Below, piece after piece: positions 2,949 to 40,331 of a DNA stretch of 43,826 nt (position 1 is the first letter of the stretch; each line of letters begins with the position of its first letter). Under the pieces are notes generated by a model, which saw nothing but the letters and a program-made list of their open reading frames with translations, ran no database searches and had not been told where the DNA came from. This stretch comes from Alloprevotella sp. (GTDB taxonomy: Bacteria; Bacteroidota; Bacteroidia; Bacteroidales; Bacteroidaceae). The DNA lies in NCBI GenBank assembly GCA_017476545.1, contig JAFUZP010000025.1:1-43826 (forward strand), in the 5' to 3' direction. Both the position numbers and the translations under genes were made by a program.

Positions 2949-3653
2949 TCAGTCCAGGTCGTTTTCTATCGTCTGCTGCGAGAGCCACGCCTCGAATCCT
3001 TCCTCTGTAAAGCAGTCCTCCACGCGGATGTCACCCACTCTGGTGCGCCGAAGGGAGGTGAGGTGCGCCCCGCTACCCAGTGCCTCACCAATGTCGCGGG
3101 CCAGCGCGCGGATGTAGGTACCCTTACCGCACGTCACGCGGATACGGGCATAGTCGGGCAGGCGCAACTCTTCCAGTACAATGCTGTCTATATGTATGCG
3201 CTTAGGCTTCAACTCCACGTCCTTCCCTTTCCGCGCCAGTTCGTAGGCGCGCTTCCCGTCTGCATGACAGGCGGAGAATATGGGGGGCACTTGGTCCGTA
3301 TCACCCTCAAAACGGTGCAGTGTCTCACGGACGAGCGCGTCTGTTATATGTGCCGTAGGATATACGGCATCCACGGGATGCTCCAGGTCGTAGCTGGGCG
3401 TAGTCGCACCTAAGCAAAGCTCTGCCACGTACTCCTTCGTGTGTCCCTGCAACGCCTCAATGGTCTTTGTCGCCCGCCCGGTGCAGATAACGAGCACGCC
3501 GGTGGCCAGCGGATCGAGCGTTCCGGCATGCCCCACCTTCAGACGCCGGCCTATACGCTTAGTCAGCAACCGCCGCACGTGGGCTACCATACGGAAGGAT
3601 GTAGCACGATAGGGCTTGTCAAAAGCCAGCACTTGTCCTTTCAGGAAGTTCAT
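2949..3653 (-). CDS. truB: tRNA pseudouridine(55) synthase
   Basis: TruB makes pseudouridine 55 in the T-loop of tRNAs. The 234-aa product carries the catalytic motif GHAGTLDPLATGVL with nucleophile Asp47, the DKPYRATSF N-terminal motif, the KEYVAELCLG strand, and the RVTCGKGTYIRALARD motif. It is shorter than the E. coli enzyme because the C-terminal PUA-like part is reduced, which is common in this phylum. Its ATG lies at the uppP stop codon, so the two are translationally coupled. A 181-nt gap separates its end from queA. Confidence 0.96.
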   Translation of the reverse strand: MNFLKGQVLAFDKPYRATSFRMVAHVRRLLTKRIGRRLKVGHAGTLDPLATGVLVICTGRATKTIEALQGHTKEYVAELCLGATTPSYDLEHPVDAVYPTAHITDALVRETLHRFEGDTDQVPPIFSACHADGKRAYELARKGKDVELKPKRIHIDSIVLEELRLPDYARIRVTCGKGTYIRALARDIGEALGSGAHLTSLRRTRVGDIRVEDCFTEEGFEAWLSQQTIENDLD

Positions 3654-4486
3654 CAGCTACCGAATATGAGTATCAGCAGACCTACGATGCCGCAGTAGGC
3701 GGCAAAGTATATCAGTTTGCCGCGTCGCACAATGCCTATCATCCACTTACAGGCGAAGATGCCCGAGACAAAGGCTGCAATGAAGCCCACACTGAGCGCC
3801 GTAAGGGACAAACCGCCAAAAGCAGCCTCTACGCCGCCGCGTAATACCTTGACCGTATCCAGCAACGCCTCGCCGAGAATGGGCGGTATGACCATCAGGA
3901 AGGAAAACTGCGCCAGCGTGCTTTTCTTGTTACCAAGTAGCAGGCCGGTAGCTATCGTCGCGCCGGAACGGCTGAGGCCGGGCAGCACCGCGAGTGCCTG
4001 CGCCAAACCGATGATGAAACCATCGCGTAGGGAGATGCGCTCCTTCCTCCTCGGACGCGCTACAGCCGTGAGTCCTAAGAGTGCTGCCGTAACCAGCAGG
4101 CAGCAGCCCACCACGAACAAACCCGAACCGAAGATTTCCTCCACCTTATCCTTGAAGAAAAGACCGACGATGCCGATGGGTATCATTGACACGAGGATGG
4201 CCAGCACGTAACGCTGGTCATTGTTCAGGCGTTCCAATCCCCGGGCATTGCAGCGCAAAGGGTGGAAAGTGCCTTTCAGCAGACCTATGATTTCCCGCCA
4301 AAGCACTACGAGTGTACTCAGTACGGTTGCGATGTGGACGGCTACGGTGAACATCAGGTTTTCCTCCCCCGCCGTACCCAGCAAGGCAGAGCCGATGGCC
4401 AAGTGGCCGCTGCTACTGACAGGAAGATATTCCGTCAGGCCCTGCACGATGCCGAGCAGGAGAGCTTCCAGCGTACCCATACTCAT
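3653..4486 (-). CDS. uppP: Undecaprenyl-diphosphate phosphatase (BacA type)
   Basis: UppP dephosphorylates undecaprenyl pyrophosphate at the outer face of the inner membrane, recycling the lipid carrier for peptidoglycan and glycan export. The 277-aa product is a multi-pass membrane protein with [18 protein letters not shown] near the N-terminus (Glu19 and His28 of the family active site) and the second motif [10 protein letters not shown]. It overlaps the DUF3098 gene by 4 nt and abuts truB. Confidence 0.97.
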
Positions 4487-5629: not shown

Positions 5630-5698
5630 ATCCGTTTATAAAGCTTTCCTGCGCAATGCACCCGGTCTGCGTATGGGCACACTACGCGCAATTTGCCG

Positions 5699-5919: not shown

Positions 5920-6007
5920 GTAACCCTAGGGTTAGTCCGCCGCAACTGTAGGGTTAGTCCGCCGTAACCGTAGGGTTAAGAATGCGCAACCGCAGGGATA
6001 CGAAGAA
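5920..6007 (+). repeat. Intergenic 4 x 22-nt dyad array, copy 1
   Basis: Four consecutive 22-nt units begin at 5920, 5942, 5964 and 5986. Their cores are GTAACCCTAGGGTTA, GCAACTGTAGGGTTA, GTAACCGTAGGGTTA and GCAACCGCAGGGATA. Units 1 and 3 contain the dyad TAACC-N4-GGTTA, and units 1 and 2 also share the spacer AGTCCGCC-like tail. It lies 30 nt after the stop of the C1B peptidase gene and about 290 nt before ftsX. Three more arrays with the same period, number of units and order occur in this window. Confidence 0.9.
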
Positions 6008-6037: not shown

Positions 6038-7423
6038 TCACTCCTCTTCCGCGAAAAGGGGGTCCCAAGCGGGCAGGCGAACGGGCTGCTGGCGGTAGAG
6101 CTCCTGCAGGTCCTGGGGGACATACTTGCGCTCGGCTACAAGGCGGAAGAAGTATTCGCGGAACCAGGCGGCGGTCATGACGAGGTGCCCCTTCAGCCCG
6201 GCATCGGCACCCCAGGAGTTCTCCACTTTCCACTTCAACGGCCGTCCGTCGGCATCAAGATCCACGCCCATGAGCGTCATAGCGTGGCTGGAGGCACTGG
6301 CATAGGTCTGTATGCGCTCGGCCTTGTTCATCGGGAAGTCCGTCCCGAAAAGGTCGCCGTAGGCATAGTTGTCCAGCGAGAGGACTCCGCTCTTCGCATC
6401 GTACTGCTTGCCGACGTCGCAGCTCATGTAAAGCATCGTGCTGTCCTTGATGGAAGCGATAGCGATGGGTTCTATGCGCTCCATGGGCAGGTTCAGGTAG
6501 GTCCAGTCGCGCCCGTCGTAGCTGTGGCGGTCGTACTGGATGGTGTAGGTCTTGTAGTAAGGGCGTGTGGGGTCATTCATCAGGAGGATGTAGTCGCCCT
6601 TCAGGTCGGTACCGACGTAGGTCTGGTAGAATTCCTGCGGGGTGAAAGTGCGTGTCTCCAGTGCCTTCCCGTCAGCATCGCGCATGGTCCAGGTGAACGT
6701 CTCCGGGGGCGTGCCAAGACACATGGCAAGGATACGCCAGACGGTGGAGAGCATCTCACCTTTGCGCTGCTGCACAGCCTTGGGTTTCGAGGCAGCGAGG
6801 CGGCGGAGTTCCAGCCCGTACTCCCGCAACTTGAGCGAGAGGATGGAGGACATACGGGAGGTGTTGTTGGCGTTGTAGCTCTCGGGCATGACCTCGGCGG
6901 GCACGAGGCCATACTTGGTGATGATGTCCTGCGCGCCACAGAAGGTGCCGCCATCGGACAGCGGGTGCTGGAAGAGCCACTGGTTTGTCTGCGTGTCCAT
7001 GGGTTCGGCGGCGTTGTCAATGACAGCTTGCAGGAAGAGATTGGACTTTTCCAGCTGGTCGTAGAAGAAGTTGTAGCTTTGGGAAAAATGGAAACTGCCG
7101 AGACCGTATTTCTTAATCATGCGCGCGCGTAGGACATTCATGCTGGTGAAGAGCCAGCAGCGGCCGCTCTGTTTCTGGTCGGAAATGCCCTTGGATGGAA
7201 CTTCGTTGGAGAAATGAGTGTCTGTGGCGGCGGGGTTGCCGGCCTGGAGGGCCAGGTCGTTGATTGCGTTTCGGGAGAGCGCGTTGCGCAGGGCGCGGTC
7301 GGTGGCCGTTGGCTGGTTGTCTGCCCGGAGCTGGCGGAGCAGGTCGGGCGTGATGCTCCCCGCTACTTGAGCCTGTACGACAAGGGGGAGAAAGATGAAA
7401 AGGGAGAGAAAGATTTTCTTCAT
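6038..7423 (-). CDS. Secreted C1B-family cysteine peptidase (bleomycin hydrolase/PepC-like)
   Basis: A papain-fold peptidase of the PepC/bleomycin hydrolase type. From the ATG at 7423 it has 461 aa and begins with a clear signal peptide (MKKIFLSLFIFLPLVVQAQ); an open frame extends 32 codons further upstream but would bury this signal. The catalytic segment DQKQSGRCWLF gives Gln83 and Cys89, SSHAM gives His380, and VENSWG gives Asn402. Classical PepC is cytosolic; Bacteroidota commonly have secreted versions, probably for peptide use in the periplasm. It is the last of a six-gene minus-strand run. Confidence 0.93.
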   Translation of the reverse strand: MKKIFLSLFIFLPLVVQAQVAGSITPDLLRQLRADNQPTATDRALRNALSRNAINDLALQAGNPAATDTHFSNEVPSKGISDQKQSGRCWLFTSMNVLRARMIKKYGLGSFHFSQSYNFFYDQLEKSNLFLQAVIDNAAEPMDTQTNQWLFQHPLSDGGTFCGAQDIITKYGLVPAEVMPESYNANNTSRMSSILSLKLREYGLELRRLAASKPKAVQQRKGEMLSTVWRILAMCLGTPPETFTWTMRDADGKALETRTFTPQEFYQTYVGTDLKGDYILLMNDPTRPYYKTYTIQYDRHSYDGRDWTYLNLPMERIEPIAIASIKDSTMLYMSCDVGKQYDAKSGVLSLDNYAYGDLFGTDFPMNKAERIQTYASASSHAMTLMGVDLDADGRPLKWKVENSWGADAGLKGHLVMTAAWFREYFFRLVAERKYVPQDLQELYRQQPVRLPAWDPLFAEEE

Positions 7424-7460
7424 AGCTGTAGTGTTTGTGGATATGTGTAAAGGCGGCGTG

Positions 7461-8450
7461 TCAGCCCCGCGTATGCAGTTCGGAATAGTAGTAGTGGGTA
7501 ATGTAATAGAATAGTACACCGCTCAGCAATCCGCCAAAGACATCGATCAAGTAGTGCGCGCCTATATAGACGGTAGAGAGACAAAGGAGAATATAGAAGG
7601 GTAGGGCGACGTAAGCCGTACCCCGGTTGTGGCGGTAGAGCAGTATCATGAGAATGGTACTGATGCCAACGTGGGAAGAGGGAAATGCCGCTGTGGGGCG
7701 TTCGCCGGCAGCCTGCATCACATGGACAAGCCAGCTGAAGAAGCCGGAAGGTACGGGTACGCCAGTAAGCTCTGTATGGGTGCGGAAATAATCGCCGAGG
7801 GCGGGAAAATGCCGAGCCGTTATATTGGGAACGCCAACTGCCTGAAAGTAGTACTGCGGGCCGGCCACCGGAAGAAAAAGGTATATCAGATAATAAAGTA
7901 GGAAGGAGGCGAGGACGATGAAGGCTGTCTTCTCAAACAAGCGACGGTTCTTCTGGAGCGGCAGGGCCAGCGTGATGAGGATGAGGGGATAATAGGAAAA
8001 ATAGCCGAGATTGAAGAGTTCGCGCCAGAAAGTGCCGGACAGCGCGTTGGGAAAGCTAAGGCTTGGTTGGTCCAAAAACACGAGGTACTCAAAACTGGCG
8101 AAGACGTGGTCCATATTTTGGAATGCCTGGCAGAAATCGTATGTCTCAGGATACCAATAAGCGGTCAGTGCGATAGGGAAAAAACTGCGTAGCAGGCGTG
8201 TGGCGCGACAGGGGCGGCGGCGGTGGAAAACATATAGCCCGGCCATGACTGCCAGGAAGCCAGCGCGCCAGAGGAGCAGCGAAACGGGATGCTGCATACG
8301 CACCCAAAGCAGAGCGACCAGCAGGGCCGTACCCACGATATAGGCGAGTGTGACTTTCTCTATCGGGAGCAAGTTCCGTTTCACCCGCGAAGGCTCCCAA
8401 AGACCCCGGCGCTTACGGGTTACGGCGTTTCTGTCAAAAGTAGGTTCCAT
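7461..8450 (-). CDS. PAP2-superfamily membrane phosphatase / phosphotransferase
   Basis: A 329-aa protein with six or more membrane helices. The acid-phosphatase motifs FPSSHVGIST and GAHYLIDVFGG near the C-terminus mark the PAP2 (lipid phosphatase) superfamily, with the catalytic histidines in SSH and the second motif. The long N-terminal membrane half resembles the Aur1/inositol-phosphorylceramide-synthase-like branch more than small PAP2 phosphatases. Substrate is unknown: lipid phosphate hydrolysis or a head-group transfer to ceramide are both possible, and Bacteroidota do make sphingolipids. The neighbours, an extended SDR and a lipid-type ABC exporter, fit a lipid role. Confidence 0.82.
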   Translation of the reverse strand: MEPTFDRNAVTRKRRGLWEPSRVKRNLLPIEKVTLAYIVGTALLVALLWVRMQHPVSLLLWRAGFLAVMAGLYVFHRRRPCRATRLLRSFFPIALTAYWYPETYDFCQAFQNMDHVFASFEYLVFLDQPSLSFPNALSGTFWRELFNLGYFSYYPLILITLALPLQKNRRLFEKTAFIVLASFLLYYLIYLFLPVAGPQYYFQAVGVPNITARHFPALGDYFRTHTELTGVPVPSGFFSWLVHVMQAAGERPTAAFPSSHVGISTILMILLYRHNRGTAYVALPFYILLCLSTVYIGAHYLIDVFGGLLSGVLFYYITHYYYSELHTRG

Positions 8451-8468: not shown

Positions 8469-9485
8469 TCAGAGCCATCCGCTGGTACGATACCAGGCGA
8501 CGGCCTCTTTCACACCGCGTGCAAGGGGGTATTGCGGCTCGTAGCCGAGCTCCTCCCGGGCGGGAAGAATGTCGCAACGCCAATTGCGCTGGCGAAGTAT
8601 ATGGTACTTATCGGTGTTCAGCGTAGAGGTAGTCCCGAACAGCCCGGCGGCGGTCCCGGCTATGCCGCAGGCGGCACGGAGTACCCATAACGGAGCCTTG
8701 ACGTGCAGCACGCGGTGCACCCCCATCTCCTGCTGCAAAAGGTCGGAAAAGGCGCGGCTGCTGTATTCGCCCCCGTCGGTGAGGAAGTAGGCCCTGCCGC
8801 ATGCACCGCGCTCCAGCGCGAGAAAGGCGGCGGCGACGAGGTCGCGCACATAAATGAACGTAATGGTCTGCGGCTTGAACCCTACGGAAAAATCAACGTG
8901 GCGGGCGATACTCTGCGCCATAAGGAAGTAGTCACGCTCGCGTGGCCCATAGACACCCGTCGGACGAAGTATAACGTAATCCAGTCCGGGGACGCGCCCT
9001 AATGCCTGCTCGGCCTGCAGCTTGCTCTGTCCATAGGCCGTATCGGGAACAGGCGTGTCAGTCTCCAGAATGGGCAGACCGTCGGCTTCGCGCGCAGGAC
9101 CATAAACACTGAGACTGCTGAAATATACGAAACGGCCACGCAACGTACCCGTCTCCATCAATAGACGTGCCAGACGATCCGTCCCGACAGTGTTAATACG
9201 GAAAAAATCGTTGCGGTGGCGGCACTTTGTCGCCCCGGCAGCATGTATTACATGGTCGAAAGGGCCGCTTTCCGCCCTGAACCGCTCAAGGGATGCCCGC
9301 AATGCGGTCTCATCGTCCAAACGAAGATCAAAGAAACGGATGCGTTCGTCCTGCAGCCACTGACGGCTACTCGAACGGCGGACGGCGGCCCATACCTCAA
9401 AACCGCGTTCCAAAGCCTCCTCAACGAGGAAACTCCCGATGAAACCACTCGCTCCAGTGATGAGTATCTTCATAGTTTCTTGCAT
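8469..9485 (-). CDS. NAD(P)-dependent epimerase/dehydratase (extended SDR)
   Basis: A 338-aa Rossmann-fold enzyme. The N-terminal ITGASGFIGSFL gives the GxxGxxG nucleotide-binding motif, YFSSLSVYG supplies the catalytic Ser, and TAYGQSKLQAE gives the YxxxK pair. The C-terminal half resembles 3-beta-hydroxysteroid/dihydroflavonol reductase-like SDRs rather than sugar epimerases with known specificity. The first ATG directly follows the stop of the ABC exporter (TAAATG); a second ATG four codons on is equally plausible. Substrate unknown. Confidence 0.88.
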   Translation of the reverse strand: MQETMKILITGASGFIGSFLVEEALERGFEVWAAVRRSSSRQWLQDERIRFFDLRLDDETALRASLERFRAESGPFDHVIHAAGATKCRHRNDFFRINTVGTDRLARLLMETGTLRGRFVYFSSLSVYGPAREADGLPILETDTPVPDTAYGQSKLQAEQALGRVPGLDYVILRPTGVYGPRERDYFLMAQSIARHVDFSVGFKPQTITFIYVRDLVAAAFLALERGACGRAYFLTDGGEYSSRAFSDLLQQEMGVHRVLHVKAPLWVLRAACGIAGTAAGLFGTTSTLNTDKYHILRQRNWRCDILPAREELGYEPQYPLARGVKEAVAWYRTSGWL

Positions 9486-14007: not shown

Positions 14008-14095
14008 CTATCCCTAGGGATAGTTTTCCGTAACCCTATGGTTAATTTCCTGTAACGCTAGGGTTAGTAAAAAGTAACCGCAGGGATACTCTAAT
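14008..14095 (+). repeat. Intergenic 4 x 22-nt dyad array, copy 2
   Basis: Four 22-nt units begin at 14008, 14030, 14052 and 14074. Cores are CTATCCCTAGGGATA, GTAACCCTATGGTTA, GTAACGCTAGGGTTA and GTAACCGCAGGGATA. Unit 1 with its next base is a perfect 16-bp palindrome (CTATCCCTAGGGATAG) in which both arms differ symmetrically from the TAACCCTAGGGTTA form. The array sits 43 nt past the stop of the TrmH-like gene and 153 nt before argS. The rest of 13855-14138 is AT-rich and shows no gene. Confidence 0.92.
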
Positions 14096-21899: not shown

Positions 21900-21987
21900 T
21901 TACCCCTAGGGTTACGGGAAACTACCCATAGAGTTGCACATGCCTAACCCTACGGTCAGACATCCGTAACCATGCGGTTACGGAATA
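21900..21987 (+). repeat. Intergenic 4 x 22-nt dyad array, copy 3
   Basis: Four 22-nt units begin at 21900, 21922, 21944 and 21966. Cores are TTACCCCTAGGGTTA, CTACCCATAGAGTTG, CTAACCCTACGGTCA and GTAACCATGCGGTTA. This is the most diverged copy, yet the 22-nt register is exact and unit 4 keeps perfect GTAACC/GGTTAC arms. It fills the convergent gap between the nrdG terminator and the stop of the OmpA gene. Confidence 0.85.
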
Positions 21988-30368: not shown

Positions 30369-30391
30369 ATTTTTATATTATATGCTTGTCG

Positions 30392-31429
30392 TTATATTAA
30401 ATGCTTGTGGTTTTGCTTATCTGTTGCTTCCGTCATCATTCGCTCGCCCCAGAGTAAGACGCGGCCGATTTCCGGCGTAGCAATACCGTATCGCGCGGCG
30501 GTTTCCGCAATGGGGCGTAGGCCGAACGGGAAATCCTCCGTGAAATAACGGCTGGACACGTCGGGTATGAAACCACCGCCGGCCTTCAGCATGGGGGATG
30601 ATATGGATTGGAATGCGGTGATGCTGCGCAATTTGCGGGCAAGGGATGGCGCATCGTGACTTTCATAATAGGTCAGGACATCGGGAACGGCACCTTCACG
30701 GATACCGAGGTGGCGGAGCAGTTTCTGTAGTTCTGCGTCCATGTTAATGTACAATTCCGCCGCTTCTTCTGTCCATTCGGCATAGAATGCGGGCACCCCT
30801 TTGTAAGTTATGCCCGGCCGCCAGTCATGCCATAAGTCGTAAAGACGAGCTGGATGCAAAAGGGGGTTGCTGTTGGATAAACTTGCCTCAAAATGGGATT
30901 CCAGCAGGCTGACGGGTGTCTGCAGCAGGTTTTCAAGTACGCTTCTTAAACCTTCTGGATTATCAAAGCGTTCCGTTGCGACATAAAGACGCGTCTTATG
31001 TCCCAGGATGGCGACGCGTTGTCCGTAAGTTTCTGTGCGTGCTATGAATGGTACGCGCTGGAATCCGAAGAGCGGGGTGGTGGGGTGGAGGATATCCTGT
31101 GCCGCGAAAAAGAATCCCGTGTTGCAGACTGCGCTTCCTACAGCGGTATTTGGCTCCAGGTGTGGGCGTAGTGCTTTAAGTGTAGGACGGATGGCAAATC
31201 CCGGCAGGCAAAGCAGTACGAGATCGCTACCCTTGACGGCCTTTTCCGCCTGGTCTGTGATGAGGCTTATTTTCCCGATGGATTCGTAGTTTTTGTCTGC
31301 AACGACAAGGTTTTGAATCCATTCCTTCGGACGTGTGGTGAGCAGGCGCACGTTGCCCGTATGGTGCGCGGCAATGAAGCCTGCGCAGGCATGGCCGATA
31401 TTTCCGCCCCCGCAGATAGTAATCGTCAT
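30392..31429 (-). CDS. NAD/NADP octopine/nopaline dehydrogenase-family protein
   Basis: A 345-aa two-domain protein. The N-terminal TITICGGGNIGHACAGFIA is a Rossmann NAD(P)-binding motif, and GSDLVLLCLPGFA follows as in the 6-phosphogluconate/opine dehydrogenase fold. The C-terminal helical domain has SNSNPLLHPARLY, close to the catalytic N-x2-x-H segment of opine dehydrogenases. Such enzymes condense an amino acid with a keto acid using NAD(P)H. The start overlaps the stop of the upstream fusion gene by 4 nt, so the two probably share a pathway. Substrate unknown. Confidence 0.83.
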   Translation of the reverse strand: MTITICGGGNIGHACAGFIAAHHTGNVRLLTTRPKEWIQNLVVADKNYESIGKISLITDQAEKAVKGSDLVLLCLPGFAIRPTLKALRPHLEPNTAVGSAVCNTGFFFAAQDILHPTTPLFGFQRVPFIARTETYGQRVAILGHKTRLYVATERFDNPEGLRSVLENLLQTPVSLLESHFEASLSNSNPLLHPARLYDLWHDWRPGITYKGVPAFYAEWTEEAAELYINMDAELQKLLRHLGIREGAVPDVLTYYESHDAPSLARKLRSITAFQSISSPMLKAGGGFIPDVSSRYFTEDFPFGLRPIAETAARYGIATPEIGRVLLWGERMMTEATDKQNHKHLI

Positions 31430-34638: not shown

Positions 34639-35169
34639 ATGGACAAAATAGACAGCCTGGATCTGAAAATACTGAAAGTCCTCACGGCGGACGCGCGTGT
34701 CCCCCTGAAAGAGTTGGCGGATACGTGCGGCATGAGCCGTGCGGCCGTGCACCAGCGCATCATGCGCCTTATGGAAGCGGGCACCATCACGGGTAGCGGC
34801 TATCATTTGAACCCGAAATCGATAGGCTACAACACGTGTACGTACGTCGGCATCACGCTGGAACGCGGATCTATGTACCGCGCCGTGGCGGCACGGCTGG
34901 AGCAGATTCCTGAAATTGTGGAGTGCCACTTCACAACGGGGGCGTACACGATGCTCGTCAAACTCTACTCCCACGACAACGCGCATCTCATGGAACTGCT
35001 CAACGAGGGCATACAGGGCATTGAGGGTGTCACCTCCACCGAGACGCTTATCTCCCTTGAGCAGACCATACACCGCGAGATACCCATTGTCGCCCTGCCC
35101 GCCACCAGCGAGAAACCGCGCCAAGAGAAGCGGGGGCGTAAGCCGAAAAAGACGAAGACCGCACCATGA
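34639..35169 (+). CDS. Lrp/AsnC-family transcriptional regulator
   Basis: A 176-aa regulator from the ATG at 34639. Residues 1-60 are the helix-turn-helix (KIDSLDLKILKVLTADARV, then MSRAAVHQRIMRL); residues 65-145 are the RAM ligand-binding domain. The last 20 residues are strongly basic with RGRKPKK, resembling an AT-hook-like tail that most Lrp proteins lack. An upstream in-frame stretch is not conserved. Its stop overlaps the DUF4491 start (ATGA). Ligand and targets unknown; the family often senses amino acids. Confidence 0.92.
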   Translation: MDKIDSLDLKILKVLTADARVPLKELADTCGMSRAAVHQRIMRLMEAGTITGSGYHLNPKSIGYNTCTYVGITLERGSMYRAVAARLEQIPEIVECHFTTGAYTMLVKLYSHDNAHLMELLNEGIQGIEGVTSTETLISLEQTIHREIPIVALPATSEKPRQEKRGRKPKKTKTAP

Positions 35170-40243: not shown

Positions 40244-40331
40244 ATAATCCTAGGGATTGGCAATCCTAACCGTAGGGTTACGGTGAACTAACCATAGGGT
40301 TACAGTGAATGAACCGCAGGGTTAGGAAAAG
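40244..40331 (+). repeat. Intergenic 4 x 22-nt dyad array, copy 4
   Basis: Four 22-nt units begin at 40244, 40266, 40288 and 40310. Cores are ATAATCCTAGGGATT, CTAACCGTAGGGTTA, CTAACCATAGGGTTA and TGAACCGCAGGGTTA. Units 2 and 3 keep perfect TAACC-N4-GGTTA arms. The array directly follows the tyrS terminator. The rest of 40116-40657 holds a promoter and leader but no gene. Confidence 0.92.

Follow-up and report, generated by a model that had tools for sequence, protein, structure and literature searches.

REP, BIME and REPIN sequences, which go with RAYT transposases, are described as many intergenic palindromic copies that are bound by protein in some hosts, and a role in chromosome organisation has been proposed for them (PMC2817692, PMC3733652, PMC3116915, PMC3686654). 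The arrays that we report are likewise numerous, intergenic and palindromic. They differ in that they usually hold four dyads in strict 21/22-bp phase and avoid each other, that several of the genomes carrying them have no RAYT match, and that, one gene family apart, whole arrays are not copies of each other. A second comparison is with BrickBuilt, a MITE of Porphyromonas gingivalis. It has leader and tail subunits, inverted-repeat ends, no spacers and a 23-nt tandem unit, with 19 intergenic copies in ATCC 33277 (PMC4596501). Our arrays share with BrickBuilt the order Bacteroidales, the intergenic location and a tandem unit of similar length, but they have no inverted-repeat ends, a period of 21/22 and an estimated ~175–190 members.

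The sites parS (ParB), NBS (Noc), matS (MatP) and those of SlmA are single, widely conserved palindromes that are read by dimers, spread along the chromosome and not gene-specific. The arrays resemble them in being palindromes of similar size distributed along the chromosome, and differ in forming phased rows that change within one genus. Plasmid iterons such as those of pPS10 and R6K have a direction, measure 22 bp and are set in helical phase, in numbers of about four and upwards. The arrays match this in direction, length (~22 bp), phase and number, but there are many of them along the chromosome, and no Rep_3 initiator was found in nine genomes. DNA-uptake-sequence dialects and Chi are short single sites that occur genome-wide and vary between related species, as the arrays also do. 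Those sites are far denser and single, whereas the arrays are rows of phased dyads.

Each single ingredient thus has a parallel, in REP, BrickBuilt, parS/NBS, iterons or uptake-sequence dialects; we know of no system that combines phased multi-dyad rows, mutual avoidance and dialect change within a genus. The initial annotation of this DNA did not recognise the repeat as a known family. This agrees with the open-access literature on such arrays, BrickBuilt or Lrp, in which we found no description of such arrays, most subscription journals lying outside that scope.

Results

Four phased arrays in the window

The window, the whole stretch of 43,826 nucleotides analysed here, is the entire contig C13 of a Bacteroidales MAG (G000; 1,980,113 bases, 80% complete). 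Its anaerobic ribonucleotide reductase has its best matches in named genomes among uncultured Bacteroidales MAGs, some of them from the rumen. Four arrays are present:

Array 1, 5921..6000, plus strand: four 14-bp dyads at 5921, 5943, 5965 and 5987 in 22-nt steps; units mostly in plus orientation, unit 4 scoring opposite; between an ftsX-like gene (minus) and the 3' end of the ORF 6038-7519 (minus).
Array 2, 14009..14088, plus strand: dyads at 14009, 14031, 14053 and 14075, unit 4 scoring opposite; between argS (minus) and an RlmB/TrmH-like methyltransferase gene (minus).
Array 3, 21901..21980, minus strand: dyads at 21901, 21923 (degenerate), 21945 and 21967, unit directions mixed; immediately beyond a hairpin (by eye) 3' of an nrdG-like ORF, convergent with an OmpA/MotB-like gene.
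Array 4, 40245..40324, minus strand: dyads at 40245, 40267, 40289 and 40311, the one at 40245 degenerate and opposite in direction; adjoining a hairpin and T-run (by eye) downstream of tyrS (plus).

All four arrays of the initial annotation are found, with coordinates corrected by one base (dyad starts 5921, 14009, 21901 and 40245). The 22-nt spacing is exact in all four, and the proposed TAACC-N4-GGTTA core is matched at two mismatches or fewer by 14 of the 16 units; the two weak units start at 21923 and 40245. Taken singly, dyads show a slight enrichment in the window (23, vs 13.3 after shuffling, with at least 23 in 2 of 100 shuffled sequences); the case for these arrays rests on the 22-nt register. 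Tandem Repeats Finder detects three of the four. The window also contains two near-identical 19-nt AT-rich direct repeats at 30373-30412, where two minus-strand ORFs meet.

Genome-wide census and unit structure

At up to three mismatches, G000 contains 444 neighbouring dyad pairs in 22-nt register, and the reversed pattern gives 0. Arrays were called with a dyad matrix and 22-nt chaining, using reversed sequence as a control, in 793,600 sampled bases plus the window (837,426 bases, 42% of the assembly). We found 79 arrays in these 837 kb, far beyond the four of the window, and none in the reversed sequence. They occur in 13 of the 13 contigs sampled, and extrapolation from this 42% of the assembly gives a total of ~175 (at least three units) to ~190 arrays for the genome.

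Four units per array, initially described as exact, hold as a strong mode (52 of the 79 arrays) but not as a law: the range is 2–8, with 5 arrays of two units, 2 of three, 13 of five, 6 of six and 1 of eight, and 72/79 have at least four. Unless stated otherwise, the results that follow are for the 74 arrays of three units or more, the 5 two-unit arrays being set aside. The 14-bp dyad likewise stands as the core of a longer unit. The complete unit spans 22 bp and is directional, TAACCCTAGGGTTA-GTTYNYCG, and 292 of 323 units point the same way as their own array. The 8-nt spacers carry a consensus of their own, GTTYNYCG, and are not the unrelated, near-repeat-length spacers of a CRISPR. A special first 'cap' unit was suspected early; it is clearest in the arrays of a paralogous leader family (see below) and is not claimed.

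Arrays avoid each other along the chromosome

The 61 inter-array gaps of G000 have a mean of 11.5 kb, a minimum of 3.0 kb and a CV of 0.51. Placement in random intergenic gaps yields a CV of 0.82–0.86 (sd 0.09), and values of 0.51 or lower were obtained in 0/5000 trials for each of three null models. Gaps below 5 kb, some of which could be concealed by contig breaks at arrays, number 5 of 61 against 19.7 expected (0/5000), while those above 25 kb fall a little short of expectation (1 vs 3.9, P 0.04). When the 12 paralogous arrays are removed, the CV is 0.62 vs a null of 0.85 (P 0.005), with 1 gap below 5 kb vs 14.1 expected (0/5000) and 4 above 25 kb vs 4.8. The pattern is one of mutual avoidance at distances under ~5 kb, not of a true period.

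In two relatives, too, the gaps are more even than under uniform placement: in G005 (10 gaps of 5.6–16.7 kb, CV 0.36, P 0.006) and in one 60-kb stretch of G010 (9 gaps, CV 0.40, P 0.003). Beyond that stretch, G010 has four more gaps on short contigs, two of them of 1.2 and 1.3 kb. Four G005 contigs (C3, C4, C10 and C11; L209, L210, L216 and L217) start less than 130 bp from an array, as would be expected if assembly tended to stop at arrays; array counts in drafts may be too low.

Rows of sites or copies of an element

Mutual avoidance below ~5 kb is what target immunity would yield if the arrays were non-autonomous mobile repeats of REP/REPIN or MITE type, kept apart by a Tn7- or Mu-like mechanism. 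The right end of Tn7 carries four 22-bp TnsB sites and confers immunity. The ~175–190 intergenic copies and their species-specific families would also fit such repeats, and 12 arrays did spread together with a leader and a gene. The copies of this paralogous leader-plus-gene family in G000 are located as follows:

C10: 4227, 104380 and 122926
C11: 35010
C18: 6892
C29: 19268
C36: 46582 and 49570
C37: 2892 and 36955
C42: 13959 and 36166

The leader is conserved over up to ~410 bp and contains inverted repeats and a promoter-like sequence, which we take to be of the Bacteroidales type. Ten of the 12 copies are followed by a predicted gene of 160–229 aa with K-x-Y-V-x-P...LLA-type motifs near its start, and each of the 12 has an array directly upstream.

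Outside this one family no conserved flank was found, and there are no conserved terminal inverted repeats. Flank words of 4, 5, 6 and 8 nt show no clear excess over permuted pairs, giving no clear sign of target duplication. These results speak against a MITE or transposon end. Units are barely more alike within arrays than between them (dyad 0.758 vs 0.742; spacer 0.493 vs 0.456). Identical adjacent units are found in 6 of 74 arrays, so local duplication occurs. For the 60 arrays with at least four units, the 12 paralogous ones excluded, the mean best whole-array identity is 0.811, and 0.805 (sd 0.003) once units have been exchanged at random between arrays. By these comparisons, and the paralogous family apart, the arrays have the appearance of sites in rows, each held close to a common consensus, and not of copies of an element.

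G003, G005, G010 and G030, which all carry arrays or array pairs, lack a match to the RAYT domain (PF01797), and G000 has only a 51-position match in a 332-aa ORF; these five MAGs are 80–87% complete. G004 has 2 matches, yet no array excess in 220 kb. The TnsB/MuA-type domain PF09299 was matched in 0 of 10 genomes, and 0 of 14 control genomes matched either. While immunity would account for the avoidance, the absence of target duplication, of a shared flank, of whole-array likeness and of RAYT in several carriers makes mobile repeats an unlikely explanation.

Arrays are indifferent to gene arrangement

According to our own gene calls, based on codon statistics, none of the 74 arrays of G000 lies inside a predicted gene, although coding regions make up 87.5% of the total; where arrays overlap a gene end, as a few do, the overlap is 40 bp at most. 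The neighbouring genes are tandem for 45 arrays, convergent for 14 and divergent for 12, with 3 arrays at the end of a stretch, while the available intergenic gaps of at least 130 bp comprise 133 tandem, 52 convergent and 50 divergent ones. Since arrays are present in all three kinds of gap, a promoter is not required. Array direction is unrelated to gene strand in tandem gaps (14/12/10/9) and to the sign of the GC skew (27/26/11/10).

These data bear on a local role in gene control, in which the arrays would be operators, insulators or operon-end road-blocks bound by a global regulator. In tandem gaps, 35 of 45 arrays lie nearer the 3' end of the upstream gene (mean position 0.34), which would fit such a role, and the 12 paralogous arrays sit directly upstream of a leader with promoter-like sequence. 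Three of the four window arrays adjoin a hairpin, by eye. This terminator association looked strong in the window but is not so genome-wide: a terminator-like site is found in 29 of 79 array gaps vs 31 of 108 array-free gaps of at least 200 bp. A facing terminator-like site within 150 bp accompanies 14 of 74 arrays, and in 4 of these 14 the site is flush with the array. Convergent gaps hold arrays about as frequently as divergent ones, orientation is independent of gene strand, and gene regulation would not predict mutual avoidance. We therefore regard local gene control as quite improbable.

Relatives carry phased arrays of other sequence

Among 58 genomes of the genus searched at up to three mismatches, the G000 pattern was found outside G000 only in G018 (1 pair) and G077 (2 pairs); the other 55 had none, and one further genome gave one reversed-control match. 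In G077 this is a single array-like place with a related unit, not a family. With two mismatches at most, none of 60 further genomes from the genus and the order contains the pattern.

Relatives were also scanned for intergenic self-similarity at periods 16–30, with short-period, heptamer and coding peaks filtered out. In 135 loci (2.33 Mb), period 21 was found 57 times and period 22 21 times, every other period 2–10 times. The first contigs of 20 same-genus genomes gave 12 and 3 for periods 21 and 22 vs a mean of 0.8 for the other periods, the nearest NrdD loci 13 and 4 vs 0.6, and two groups of other NrdD loci 17 and 3 vs 2.6 and 14 and 13 vs 1.7. There is no clear 21/22 excess in 20 genomes from other families of the order (4 and 1 vs 2.0). 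The complete same-genus genome G004 has no excess in 220 kb (1 and 0 vs 0.8), which means that in G004 the system can be done without, has been lost or takes another form. The initial suggestion of selection on spacing, unit number and dyad is supported; the two-turn spacing of 21 or 22 bp recurs in other species, and neighbouring periods do not.

In the dialect of G010 the unit is AACTtActCnGagTaAGTT with a period of 21, and 20 arrays occur in 125 kb, 12 of them with three units; the pattern gives 404 pairs genome-wide. Its loose form also matches G003 (12) and G017 (3), which have sequences of their own, and the distant G046 (1 pair), but not G000 (0); five genomes of other families gave 1–3 reversed-control matches. 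In G005 the unit is cGtAGaAatTtCTaCg, with 19 arrays of broadly varying unit number in 185 kb and 117 pairs genome-wide. G019 (79 pairs) and G007 (42) share a near form of it, and G015 and G021 have 1 and 2 pairs. The dyad claim for other species rests on the G010 and G005 arrays and on the pattern counts, the symmetry of a single array seldom reaching significance (8 of 78 at 0.05, median 0.56).

Reciprocal pairs with the G000 samples number only 19 for G010 and 18 for G005, with one shared array gap in each case. A search for a gene family flanking arrays across species ranked nrdD and nrdG first, an ascertainment effect, as those loci were fetched with NrdD.

Intergenic heptamer tandem repeats in several relatives (such as GGGTTAG or ACTCTAC) mimic a period of 21 and were filtered out:

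L088: heptamer repeat at 3721
L069: heptamer repeat at 5692
L065: heptamer repeats at 9345 and 14077
L171: heptamer repeat at 3345

An AT-rich relative (L035) has several degenerate period-21 arrays with AAAC..GTTT-like units (90, 9216 and 16685), which are probably a further dialect, from a different lineage.

That the dialects are specific to species, with similar forms in some relatives, is what would be expected of self-marks, i.e. species tags that, in the manner of Chi or DNA-uptake sequences, tell own from foreign DNA in uptake or recombination or for a nuclease or loop extruder. The presence of arrays in all 13 sampled contigs, independent of genes and GC skew, would suit such tags, as would the rarity of the exact two-unit pattern in viruses: it was found in 2 of 2.9 million viral contigs (GC 0.41 and 0.68), neither of which has more than two units. 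When 3 kb of the window was searched against plasmids, no match was obtained. Chi and uptake sequences, however, are short single sites, and no self-mark system known to us needs a row of phased dyads. Self-marking thus seems a doubtful role for the arrays.

The arrays are probably recognised as DNA rather than RNA

Covariation was tested at the five stem pairs of the dyad (1/14 to 5/10), with inner, outer and non-paralogous units analysed apart. In 148 inner non-paralogous units, the three variable pairs show 0, 0 and 2 paired double changes, where chance would give 0.4, 2.1 and 3.3; the pairs 4/11 and 5/10 are nearly invariant and too constant to tell. Pair 3/12 has an excess across all 323 units (25 paired double changes vs 16.9 expected, sd 3.4), which stems from outer units (19 vs 14.7, sd 3.0) and paralogous copies, the inner units having 2 vs 3.3. 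One-sided changes greatly outnumber paired ones (117 at pair 3/12 and 87 at pair 2/13, all units). On the transcribed strand in tandem gaps, G-U mismatches (46) do not exceed A-C mismatches (54).

Although every unit can fold into a short stem-loop and pair 3/12 shows its excess over all units, the dominance of one-sided changes, the lack of any inner-unit excess or G-U preference, an orientation random to transcription, the strict 21/22 period and the lack of an Rfam match to an array in the window, L101 or L204 leave RNA-level hairpins, terminators or transcript processing signals scarcely credible. The absence of compensatory changes in inner units, the random orientation and the strict helical period favour recognition of duplex DNA, which supports the earlier view of a DNA-level rather than an RNA-level feature.

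Candidate binding proteins

Several known DNA-binding proteins were considered as readers of the arrays, and none of them fits. The Rep_3 initiator (PF01051), expected if the arrays were plasmid iterons, was matched in 0 of 9 genomes, while two control genomes matched. G000, G005 and G010 each have a single parB and no Noc-like paralogue, and ParB/Noc was rejected; the HTH region of ParB seems by eye to be conserved, whereas the arrays have nothing in common between dialects.

Lrp forms octamers of four dimers. The only Lrp/AsnC-type regulator found in G000 is encoded in the window (~34846-35064). Its recognition helix, SRAA(V/I)HQR, is identical in G000, G003, G005, G006, G010, G019 and G004c and differs in G017, and G030 has no match to the protein. 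The helix is constant across dialects, G017 excepted, so Lrp/AsnC as the reader of the dialects is not supported.

Discussion

Avoidance, random orientation and indifference to gene arrangement point to a role for the chromosome and not for single genes. We favour, at a little under an even chance, the reading that each array is a cooperative docking site on duplex DNA for a row of dimers, serving chromosome architecture rather than single genes. A putative sequence-specific protein would usually bind an array as four dimers, placed on the same face of the DNA at intervals of two helical turns. The ~175–190 putative nucleoprotein knots per genome would have their role at the scale of the whole chromosome. 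Most probably they would be anchors or topological barriers dividing it into stretches of ~5–20 kb, and not switches of adjacent genes. The dialects would arise as the protein and its sites change together.

More tentatively, the arrays may belong to a clade-wide system new to science, in which rows occupied by dimers divide the chromosome and the protein and its sites co-evolve fast, in the manner of self-recognition. The results point to an array class unrecognised so far, a chromosome-wide and fast-changing protein-DNA system.

The arrays provide a countable and testable feature, with ~175–190 arrays per genome, mutual avoidance, a sharp minimum size and a sequence that changes between species. 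Scans of intergenic DNA for helical periods reveal arrays that sequence-based searches miss. The dialects within one genus constitute a natural experiment on the joint change of a protein and hundreds of its sites. To our knowledge, chromosome organisation in Bacteroidales is poorly known, and identifying the protein that binds the arrays would be a way into it.
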